Assembly: GCA_949298955.1 (NCBI GenBank)
Contig: CASFYQ010000002.1
Location: 62,001 to 126,000, forward strand
DNA length: 64,000 bases
DNA from: an uncultured Bacteroidales bacterium
Lineage (GTDB): Bacteria > Bacteroidota > Bacteroidia > Bacteroidales > Barnesiellaceae
Direction of reading: 5' to 3'
Position numbers and translations under genes: made by a program. Below are positions 1 to 2,779 of this stretch, piece by piece. The notes beneath the pieces were generated by a model that saw only the letters and a program-made list of their open reading frames with translations, did no database searches and had not been told where the DNA came from. Position 1 is the first letter of the stretch; each line of letters opens with the position of its first letter.

Positions 1-1032
1 GAGGGCCAGTTTCACCATCATGTTGTTGATGGGGGCAATGTCGGTCGACAACCCCACCTGTACCATGGCATTGGCATCTTCGTCCGAAACATAGGCGGGG
101 ATAACGCCCAGCTCGCGAGCACGGCGCACATCGGTTATCTCGTCGTTCTGATGATAGATGGGGTTTCCCGTAAGGCAGGCATAACAGGGGCCTCCCGGCC
201 GCACCCGCAGGATGTCGCCTCCCTCGGCCCGAGTGACGGCCCGGCCGAACAGGCCCACCTTGCCGAGCTTTACCAAACGGGCGTTGATATTGTAACGACT
301 GGCATACTCGTCGGTAGCGACAATGGTAAGGTCGCTCTCGGCAATGCAACGCTCGAGTTCATCGAGGTGCCGATTGATATCGATGGCGAGAGTCTCGACC
401 TGCGCATAGGGGTTCTTCAACAATATGGCATCTTTCACGGCATGGACTTTGAGCCGCCCCAACTCGTTCACCCCGCAAATGTGGCGCGAGATATTGTGCA
501 ACTCAATGCGGTCGAAATCGATAAGAATGAAATGCCCTATCCCGGCCTTGGCCAGTTCGACGGCGATAGGCGCGCCGCCACTGCCCAACCCCACGACAAG
601 CACCTTCTTGGATTCAAGGGCTCCCACCTCGAGCAATCCTTTGCTGCGAGTATAGAGTTCGCTGTGCCGGGGTACATATTTCACCGTAGCCTCGACCTGT
701 TGCTCCCCGTCAATGATAAAAGCCCGAGAGTTGACCCGATTGTCCTCCTCGACAAAGATGCAGACAATCACCACCGGTACCCGCCGAGCTTCGGCAGGCA
801 AAGCGGCATACACAGCCGCGGCCTCCCGGTCGGCCTGCTCATATCCCGCCCGATCGACGACCCGGAATACACAAGGCATCGAGTAGCCCGTGGGAGCCAC
901 CTGCGGATATTTGAGGTAAACGTGGTAAACTTGCTCGCCTTTCCACTCGAAGGCAGCTCCGAAACACTGGGACTGCCCGCTGTTCCAGAACTCCTGCAAG
1001 TGATCTTGATAGAGATAAACGATAGATTCCAT
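1..1032 (-). CDS. E1-like ThiF-family adenylyltransferase of a ubiquitin-like operon (C-terminus beyond window)
   Basis: The 344 visible residues form an N-terminal region of about 135 residues without a recognised fold, then an E1/ThiF adenylation domain. Seen directly: nucleotide-binding loop GLGSGGAP (148-155), acidic motif DFDRIELHNISRH (172-184) with the Asn and Arg expected in E1 enzymes, Lys195, Asp241 in ATDEY, and a CYAC pair (283-286) that could bind zinc or hold a thioester cysteine. Such enzymes adenylate the C-terminus of a ubiquitin-like protein. The ATG lies 7 bp after the stop of the 67-residue gene, so this is the last visible gene of the operon starting at 2704. The N-terminal extension is unlike MoeB or ThiF and resembles the multidomain layout of bacterial E1s found next to E2 and JAMM genes. 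The stop codon is outside the window. Confidence 0.85.
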   Translation of the reverse strand, partial: MESIVYLYQDHLQEFWNSGQSQCFGAAFEWKGEQVYHVYLKYPQVAPTGYSMPCVFRVVDRAGYEQADREAAAVYAALPAEARRVPVVIVCIFVEEDNRVNSRAFIIDGEQQVEATVKYVPRHSELYTRSKGLLEVGALESKKVLVVGLGSGGAPIAVELAKAGIGHFILIDFDRIELHNISRHICGVNELGRLKVHAVKDAILLKNPYAQVETLAIDINRHLDELERCIAESDLTIVATDEYASRYNINARLVKLGKVGLFGRAVTRAEGGDILRVRPGGPCYACLTGNPIYHQNDEITDVRRARELGVIPAYVSDEDANAMVQVGLSTDIAPINNMMVKLAL

Positions 1033-1039
1033 AACCCGA

Positions 1040-1243
1040 TTATTTTACATAATAGGGTTTTGTACCGATGGTCGTTCCCACCTTTTCCTTTCCGCTGCGT
1101 TCGGCTTCGGCCGGAGTCATCGCCTCCAATTCGCCATCGTCGCCAATCACCAGTTCCACTTCACGGCGGCCGCTGTTGGTCTGTTCCAAAGCTTCGCCCA
1201 AATCGACACAATCGTCGGGTCTTTTTTTGTCAAATAGTCCCAT
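1040..1243 (-). CDS. 67-residue protein of the ubiquitin-like operon, candidate modifier
   Basis: This small acidic-then-basic protein sits between the E2-like and E1-like genes, where bacterial ubiquitin-like operons often place the modifier. It begins MGLFDKKRPDD, has a likely strand pair around residues 27-40 (REVELVIGDDGELE) and ends IGTKPYYVK. It does not end in Gly-Gly, and a complete beta-grasp fold is not obvious in 67 residues. Gly56 and Gly60 near the end could be exposed if the JAMM peptidase trimmed the tail, but that is speculation. The spacing to the E1 start (7 bp) supports a real, co-translated gene. Function is not established; an adaptor or substrate is equally possible. Confidence 0.7.
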   Translation of the reverse strand: MGLFDKKRPDDCVDLGEALEQTNSGRREVELVIGDDGELEAMTPAEAERSGKEKVGTTIGTKPYYVK

Positions 1244-1283
1244 AGTCTTCTATTTTTAAGGATTATAATTACACAATATCGCT

Positions 1284-1727
1284 TTAATAGTTGGCCCCTC
1301 TCAAAAACTCGTCGAGCGTGCGCCCCGTCTTCAAGTGGCACTCGTACATTTCGAGCCAAATGCGCACCTTGATAATAATCTGGTAAAGCGTGATACGATT
1401 GGGCGCCCAATCTTCATGGCCATAATGGCACACCCGCACACAGCCGTTTTCGCCAGGAAGCGTGTGCATGCTATGGCTGGCGCCGAGCATGCTTCCGCCC
1501 GAACGGGTCAACAGCGGTTTGGGGCTGGTAATGAAAACCTTGGGGATATTGTAGGGATAGTTATCCGAAAGGTCGATTTTTATCACATAGCACCGCAGCG
1601 AGTTGGTCTGGATAGCCACTGCCAAATAGGGGTGCGATGTATTCATGTCCATAAACTTGTATTGCTTGGGTTTGATGGTCGAGTTTTGCAGCACCCCCAA
1701 CTCTATTTGATACCTTTCATACGTCAT
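1284..1727 (-). CDS. E2-like (UBC-fold) conjugating protein
   Basis: The 147-residue length is right for a single UBC domain. A central LSDNYPYNIPKVFI segment (53-66) corresponds to the hydrophobic strand and Pro-rich turn of E2 enzymes. It is followed by a catalytic-type region with His88, Cys96 and Cys100 (GCVRVC) and then DWAPNRITLYQI, matching the tryptophan and helix that follow the E2 active-site cysteine. Either Cys96 or Cys100 could carry the thioester. The start codon overlaps the stop of the JAMM gene by 4 bp (ATGA), indicating translational coupling. Expected role: accept the activated modifier from the E1 encoded downstream. The assignment rests on motif order and context; a profile search was not possible. 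Confidence 0.8.
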   Translation of the reverse strand: MTYERYQIELGVLQNSTIKPKQYKFMDMNTSHPYLAVAIQTNSLRCYVIKIDLSDNYPYNIPKVFITSPKPLLTRSGGSMLGASHSMHTLPGENGCVRVCHYGHEDWAPNRITLYQIIIKVRIWLEMYECHLKTGRTLDEFLRGANY

Positions 1728-2704
1728 ATCGATAAATCTTTTAAACGGTTAATCACTAATGGTGCTATCCCATCGGACAGCGGGCTCCAATGAGAGCCTC
1801 CGGGACGGCCCAGCGCTCCCAGATTCCACGACGAGGTCTCTCCCTCTTGATAACGAACCACATAAGGAGCCCTCACCGGAAAATCCTTGTCAAAGACAAG
1901 TCGCCACGAGGCCCGGCCGGGTATACCGAAACGCACCTCGATGGTCACATCGTCGACTTTCAACAGTTTCGCATCGCTATACCGCGATTGGATATAGGCA
2001 ACAATTTGTTTCAGTTGCAGGCGGTTTGACTTGTCGTTGAGCCAAAAACCTCTATCGAATGTCACCTGCCCGGCAGATGGAGCCTGTTCGACACCCCGAG
2101 CCTCCATCTCTCCATACGCGGCCCAATCGGTATGCGGTCGAATCAAACTATCGCGACAACCCTCATCATAACGATTTCTCACCGATCCCTCACCCGGCAC
2201 AACGAGCCACGGGCGCTGTTCCATCACTATCTGCCCGTGCACACTCACAAACGAGAACGCGTTGGCCGAAGCCCCTTTGCGATTGCACACCCCGATAGAC
2301 AAGATACATCGCGACAACCCGTCGGCATACATACCTTCGTGAATCGACTGCACATCACCCCCGCTCGGGTGTGAAAGGCCCAACTGGTGATGCGAATGCC
2401 ACACCCCGATGTGCGAAAGCTTGTGCTCCCGAGACAAACGGTCGACATGGTATTGCAGATAGTCGGCATCCTGAGTAAAGCTGGTAAAGTGCCGCACCGA
2501 TTTAGGGCCCGGCCCCAGCACATACACTACCACGGCATCGCCCTCGGGAGTCCAGTAACCAAACAGGTTACCCCCCGTTTCCATTTGCGGCGAATCGAGT
2601 ATGAACCGCGCCATGAAATCCAGTTCTTGCCGGTAAATGTAAATATCCCCGTGAATCCTTCTATCAGCCTCCATACTCTTGTGCGTTTCCTTTTTCTTCA
2701 ACAA
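1724..2704 (-). CDS. JAMM/JAB (Mov34-MPN) peptidase with a C-terminal E2-like region
   Basis: Residues about 20-165 form a JAMM metalloprotease domain: Glu42 in METGG, then HSH (103-105), Ser114 and Asp117 supplying the zinc ligands. The spacing HxH-x8-S-x2-D is one residue longer than the canonical x7. Residues about 200-326 look like a degenerate UBC/RWD fold: FDKDFPVRAPYVV (271-283) resembles the E2 strand and Pro turn, and GGSHWSPLSDGIAPLVI resembles the post-active-site helix, but no catalytic cysteine is placed there. Likely role: process or remove the modifier. This is the first gene of the operon, with a promoter at 2750-2779. Translation may begin at codon 1 or at Met11 (2674). The peptidase call is firm; the C-terminal domain is inferred. 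Confidence 0.85.
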   Translation of the reverse strand: MLKKKETHKSMEADRRIHGDIYIYRQELDFMARFILDSPQMETGGNLFGYWTPEGDAVVVYVLGPGPKSVRHFTSFTQDADYLQYHVDRLSREHKLSHIGVWHSHHQLGLSHPSGGDVQSIHEGMYADGLSRCILSIGVCNRKGASANAFSFVSVHGQIVMEQRPWLVVPGEGSVRNRYDEGCRDSLIRPHTDWAAYGEMEARGVEQAPSAGQVTFDRGFWLNDKSNRLQLKQIVAYIQSRYSDAKLLKVDDVTIEVRFGIPGRASWRLVFDKDFPVRAPYVVRYQEGETSSWNLGALGRPGGSHWSPLSDGIAPLVINRLKDLSI

Positions 2705-2749
2705 GCATTTTTCTCATTACGCAATATAAGTAAAAATTATTGAGATTTA

Positions 2750-2779
2750 CAAACTTATAGTACAAAAAATACAAAACAA
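2750..2779 (-). promoter_or_regulatory. Bacteroidetes-type promoter of the ubiquitin-like operon
   Basis: On the minus strand a TAAGTTTG -7 box (2750-2757) follows a TTG (2777-2779) after 19 bp, matching the TTG/TAnnTTTG pattern of the Bacteroidetes primary sigma factor. Transcription would start near 2743, about 40 bases before the JAMM gene. Confidence 0.55.

Follow-up and report, generated by a model that had tools for sequence, protein, structure and literature searches.

The 64,000-nucleotide stretch of DNA analyzed here (the window; contig CASFYQ010000002.1, positions 62,001 to 126,000, from an uncultured Barnesiellaceae bacterium) begins with a compact operon encoding a JAMM protease, an E2-like enzyme, a small protein of 67 amino acids (aa), and an E1-like enzyme. 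With roughly even confidence, we predict from these genes a ubiquitin-like conjugation cassette that is self-contained and reversible, its most likely role being anti-phage defence. Through its relatives, the cassette is tied to defence effectors, namely PtuA/PtuB-like proteins and the cyclic oligonucleotide-based antiphage signaling system (CBASS). It is best described as a variant among the ubiquitin-like defence operons of bacteria, one in which the enzymes are separate, the small protein is unfamiliar, and the effectors can be exchanged. The features are the following, with the evidence for each in brackets (ORF, open reading frame; dN/dS, ratio of nonsynonymous to synonymous substitution rates):

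1724..2674, minus strand: JAMM/JAB metalloprotease, 316 aa from ATG 2674, with a possible E2/RWD-like tail in the last ~100 residues (PADLOC JAB, invariant zinc-site residues)
1284..1727, minus strand: E2 (UBC-like) conjugating enzyme, 147 aa, predicted catalytic Cys100 (PADLOC E2, PDB profile search, invariant residues)
1040..1243, minus strand: 67-aa small protein, candidate modifier (dN/dS, same slot in genomes G035, G495, and G682)
1..1032, minus strand: E1/ThiF-type adenylating enzyme, 344 of 411 aa inside the window (Pfam ThiF, full ORF on the contig)
L002:15408-15785 = G000:C2:61408-61785, minus strand, outside the window: fifth gene, 125-aa membrane protein (ORF on the genome contig)
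2721..2753, minus strand: putative Bacteroidota-type operon promoter, TTTG-N21-TATATTGC (motif kept in five occupied genomes)

Transcription runs from the JAMM gene through the E2 and small-protein genes to E1. The JAMM and E2 genes overlap by 4 bp (ATGA, 1724-1727), and gaps of 40 bp and 7 bp separate the small-protein gene from E2 and E1, respectively. An earlier note, made from the letters alone, had described four same-strand genes with one overlapping pair, and all of these ORFs were recovered at its positions. Its E1, E2, and JAMM assignments also stand, now with Pfam, PADLOC, and PDB-profile matches and invariant active-site residues, and the E1 motifs GLGSGGAP and DFDRIELHNISRH are present as it read them. 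Position 1 of the window falls inside the E1 gene, which runs 203 bp further on the genome contig. Reading past this edge completed the E1 at 411 aa and revealed a fifth gene that the note had missed, located on the same strand 11 bp behind E1 and followed by the flanking gene rluD. Thus, the earlier statement that no effector is visible was a product of the window edge, since a membrane-protein gene follows E1 beyond position 1.

The enzymatic assignments rest on profile matches together with invariant residues. The JAMM protein matches PADLOC JAB (7.7e-13) and, just under the Pfam cut-off, Prok-JAB (8.9e-5), and its zinc-site residues E42, H103, H105, S114, and D117 (counted from the TTG at 2704) are invariant in nine relatives. 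The E2 matches the PADLOC E2 model (2.3e-5) and, weakly, Pfam RWD/UQ_con; the PDB matches listed for its family profile are UBC-fold E2s (best, 5e-4), and C100, H88, W107, and H131 do not vary across ten relatives. The E1 holds a single ThiF domain in its 411 aa (Pfam, 3.8e-30), and its zinc-binding Cys283, Cys286, Cys407, and Cys410 are invariant across eight relatives, among which no further invariant Cys was found (C186 is missing in Bradyrhizobium). Accordingly with the note's expectations, these profile matches predict a UBC fold for 1284-1727 and an E1 fold for 1-1032.

Searching the E1 profile against solved structures placed ThiF, MoeB, MccB, UBA5, PaaA, and Uba4 nearest, followed by Cap2. 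The proximity of ThiF and MoeB would suit a sulfur-transfer or other housekeeping pathway with an E1-like enzyme; this is very improbable, as the operon occurs in only some Barnesiella species and at one site, lacks rhodanese or sulfur genes, and includes an E2, and its relatives sit with defence genes. Somewhat less remote, but still improbable, is the modification of a peptide rather than protein tagging, in which the small protein would be a precursor peptide activated by E1 in the manner of MccB and the JAMM protein a maturation protease. MccB (7e-20) and PaaA (2e-15) are indeed among the closest solved relatives, the E1 carries an extra N-terminal region of ~125 aa ahead of the ThiF domain, about the length of that in MccB, and it conserves no transthiolation Cys. 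Against a peptide pathway, the cassette never lacks a full E2 bearing an invariant Cys, the neighborhood showed no exporter or tailoring enzyme, and the relatives pair with defence effectors.

Conservation within the genus indicates that the genes form one unit. In five Barnesiella genomes, rluD and psd enclose all five; in three others, the two flanking genes are neighbors a few hundred bases apart, and all five genes are missing. The membrane-protein gene belongs to the unit because it is present or absent together with the other four. A promoter-like motif, TTTG-N20/21-TAnATTGC, precedes the JAMM gene in each of the five occupied genomes (one base differs in G005); the three empty sites showed no such motif. 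Mean dN/dS was 0.03 for E2, 0.05 for E1 and for the small protein, 0.13 for the membrane protein, and 0.14 for JAMM, compared with 0.05 for psd and 0.08 for rluD; these ratios, taken over five species, are rough, with dS near saturation. As far as they can be read, the small protein appears to be under purifying selection as strong as that on E1. The site is chromosomal and adjoins psd with no evident defence island alongside, in agreement with the earlier note. A scan of the genome contigs with the E2 returned matches in three Barnesiella contigs only. These observations make the operon a concrete, compact, and testable candidate, for which sister species offer a natural empty site.

Across about 1,500 Bacteroidota genomes, profile searches recovered the cassette from Barnesiella, G035, G495, and G682 alone (G096 shows a JAMM gene at the end of a contig), so its spread is rare and patchy. 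The same order, with a small protein between E2 and E1, is kept in the three latter genomes; the earlier note had named in advance a lack of such recurrence as one of the points on which its reading would fail. Order, spacing, and protein sequence are preserved in the five Barnesiella genomes and in other families, so the arrangement is no product of chance. Its proposal of a single operon stands. Genes for a PtuA-like ATPase (PADLOC, 2.2e-66) and a PtuB/HNH-like protein begin 20 bp behind E1 in G495 (L030:406-3705), which suggests a Septu-type system with a ubiquitin-like arm added to it; the corresponding slot in Barnesiella holds the membrane protein. In the G682 cassette (L031:3219-5613), the E2 genes form an adjacent pair and the small protein is a tandem repeat, and the last-gene slot encodes an immunoglobulin (Ig)-like protein. 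On a conjugative plasmid of Bradyrhizobium barranii (L028:6077-12447), separate JAMM, E2, and E1 genes lie inside a CBASS operon that also encodes a TIR protein, a SAVED-Cap4 nuclease, and a cyclase, the last frameshifted in the record and with a C-terminus ending in Gly-Ala. Additionally, a virus-classified contig (L035:5448-7879) carries a related cassette of helix-turn-helix-JAMM, E2, and E1 genes beside terminase and recombinase genes. E2 and E1 profile searches of viral contigs gave no relatives, and none were found in phage records. Across the relatives, one enzyme set is combined with different anti-phage effectors.

The small protein is the most likely candidate for the modifier. Within Barnesiella, its residues 50-65 are invariant and end in TKPYY, and the last 2 to 4 residues that follow vary in sequence and length. 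In G035, G495, and G682, the slot between E2 and E1 holds a small protein ending in an invariant KDGF and a variable end, and slot proteins across cassettes measure 62-67 aa (tandem in G682). A conserved and then variable C-terminus would be the pattern expected of a trimmed precursor, and the tandem repeat in G682 may echo poly-ubiquitin. If the cut falls at a Gly, the mature end would be G60 in Barnesiella and the G of KDG in the others; if it falls at the edge of conservation, the small proteins would end in an aromatic residue. The earlier note saw no clear ubiquitin-like gene, and the 67-aa protein indeed matches no known family in the family and profile libraries searched (Pfam and PADLOC included) and has no significant match among solved structures. 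AlphaFold gives a helix at 9-23, a beta-beta-alpha-beta core at 26-61, and a loose tail, at a mean predicted local distance difference test (pLDDT) score of 65 (about 80 in the better part of the core); fold searches with this model gave no usable match (Foldseek best E, 0.33; VIA best Z, 3.6) and spoke neither for nor against a beta-grasp. It is plausible that the protein acts as a modifier without a beta-grasp fold, and type II CBASS, in which a protein without a ubiquitin fold is activated, offers a precedent (PMC10097602, PMC12355090).

Several observations weigh against a defence-related conjugation cassette with this protein as its modifier. The small protein lacks a terminal Gly-Gly and any detectable match to the ubiquitin family, and the Barnesiella copy has no known defence gene alongside. 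The fifth gene has no Pfam family match over the cut-off and none in PADLOC. Homology between the Barnesiella small protein and those of G035, G495, and G682 falls short of significance (hhalign E, 0.45), so they are taken as equivalent from their position, size, and pattern. Furthermore, a similar stretch is apparently fused to the N-terminus of the Bradyrhizobium E1 (a weak likeness: E, 0.022; shuffle P, 0.0002), and a role as an E1 accessory would therefore suit the protein as well as a role as modifier. This leads to a lesser but real possibility, that conjugation is genuine and the 67-aa protein is an accessory or regulator of E1 or E2, with host ThiS, or another protein through its own C-terminus (as the cyclase in type II CBASS), serving as the modifier. 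The apparent fusion recurs in L035, Barnesiella genomes carry ThiS, and the small protein of Barnesiella has no terminal Gly of its own. According to Jenson et al. (PMC10097602), the cyclases in Cap2/Cap3 operons have a terminal Gly or Ala, and it is by this residue that they become conjugated; the Gly-Ala end of the neighboring Bradyrhizobium cyclase is of the same kind. On the contrary, this Barnesiella genome has no cyclase, the small protein is tandemly repeated in G682, its conserved-then-variable C-terminus recurs, and the homology of the E1 fusion is weak.

Taking the 67-aa protein as the modifier, the predicted enzymes suggest the following course. The E1 would bind ATP and adenylate the C-terminus of the modifier, as its ThiF fold implies. 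Because no transthiolation Cys is conserved in E1, the activated modifier would pass straight to Cys100 of the E2, which may then join it to a target, possibly the membrane protein of the fifth gene or else a phage or host protein. Given its intact zinc site, the JAMM protein could trim the variable end of the modifier, strip the modifier from targets, or both. The variable last gene would act as the effector or as the regulated target, being a three-helix membrane protein here, the PtuA/PtuB-like pair in G495, and the Ig-like protein in G682. A bolder proposal, which we hold only tentatively, is that this is a bacterial ubiquitin-like immune module of a new class, with a 60-67 aa tag lacking a beta-grasp fold and processed by JAMM, an E1 without a transthiolation Cys, and interchangeable effectors (membrane protein, PtuA/PtuB-like pair, CBASS).

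Judged from sequence, the Barnesiella operon appears to work like the conjugation arms of type II CBASS and Bil and is distinct from both, failing their defining features. It shares with the Cap2/Cap3 arm of type II CBASS a ThiF-type E1, a Cys-bearing E2, and a JAB protease, the last matched here to Cap3 by its JAMM motif and PADLOC JAB hit, and relatives of the cassette lie beside defence effectors. However, Cap2 is an E2-E1 fusion, whereas the E2 and E1 are separate genes in Barnesiella, with the small protein (62-67 aa, tandem in G682) between them and with no conserved Cys in the Barnesiella-type E1 beyond the zinc ligands. Also unlike type II CBASS, no cGAS/DncV-like nucleotidyltransferase was found among the operon genes or by a whole-genome search with Pfam SMODS. 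For a known cyclic-nucleotide-activated effector, the gene compared was that of the membrane protein, which gave no Pfam hit above the cut-off and no PADLOC hit. BilABCD offers four matching roles, those of modifier candidate, E2, JAB-family protease, and E1. In contrast, BilA has two ubiquitin-like domains, for which the single 67-aa protein, with no family match, is too short, and the BilD E1 combines inactive and active adenylation domains with an ~80-aa Cys domain, whereas the Barnesiella E1 has one ThiF domain and no such Cys domain. The CEHH motif of the BilB E2 (Cys, then Glu at +6, His at +8, and His at +13; PMC11354881) is likewise absent, since D106, A108, and T113 occupy these positions after Cys100 and the invariant companions are instead H88, W107, and H131. 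The 6A-MBL system joins an E2-E1-JAB triple fusion to a metallo-beta-lactamase (MBL); here the three are separate genes, and matches to the 6A-MBL model reach 40-51 bits, with the cut-off at 320.

Also comparable are the operon types 6a-6e that Iyer et al. 2006 (PMC1779556) predicted, sporadic and mobile sets of E1, E2, JAB, and small-protein genes. Type 6d has the same components (small protein, E2, JAB, and E1) and type 6e has RWD-like inactive E2 domains. Type 6d differs in its predicted beta-grasp small protein with a highly conserved C-terminal Gly, its JAB N-terminal domain, and its helical protein, and by description none of the five types has the Barnesiella set and order. The open-licence literature yielded no paper that describes this arrangement, whether together with Septu or as an operon for bacterial ubiquitination; subscription papers and preprints were outside this scope, and a prior description is possible.

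Two details of the JAMM gene depart from the earlier note. The gene call was right, but the start is more likely ATG 2674 than TTG 2704, because relatives start there and the conserved promoter-like site occupies 2721-2753. The E2-like tail proposed for the protein fared less well. Its last 100 residues align with the E2 profile in the register that an E2 would show, the (F/Y)P-x-x-x-P stretch among them (hhalign E, 0.0015), and the AlphaFold order of helix, strands, and helix fits an E2. Since the hhalign probability is only 17% and the pLDDT 42, an E2/RWD tail is possible rather than established. The AlphaFold model, built from five sequences, was dropped from fold searching at this pLDDT.

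The fifth-gene product has a soluble N-terminus of ~40 residues and roughly three hydrophobic segments. Its N-terminus (GTRVDMSTGEII) resembles the FDPATGELIL stretch of the G495 small protein (shuffle P, 0.001, in 1 of 11 comparisons), which could be chance; a likeness between the N-termini of the Barnesiella and G682 last-gene products was rejected as not significant (shuffle P, 0.08). Finally, an operon on a Mesorhizobium plasmid (L029:4778-9684) encodes a 58-aa protein ending in LGGEY, an E2, a Cys-less E2-like protein, ThiF, JAB, an MBL-like protein, and a patatin, and is a related but different system.
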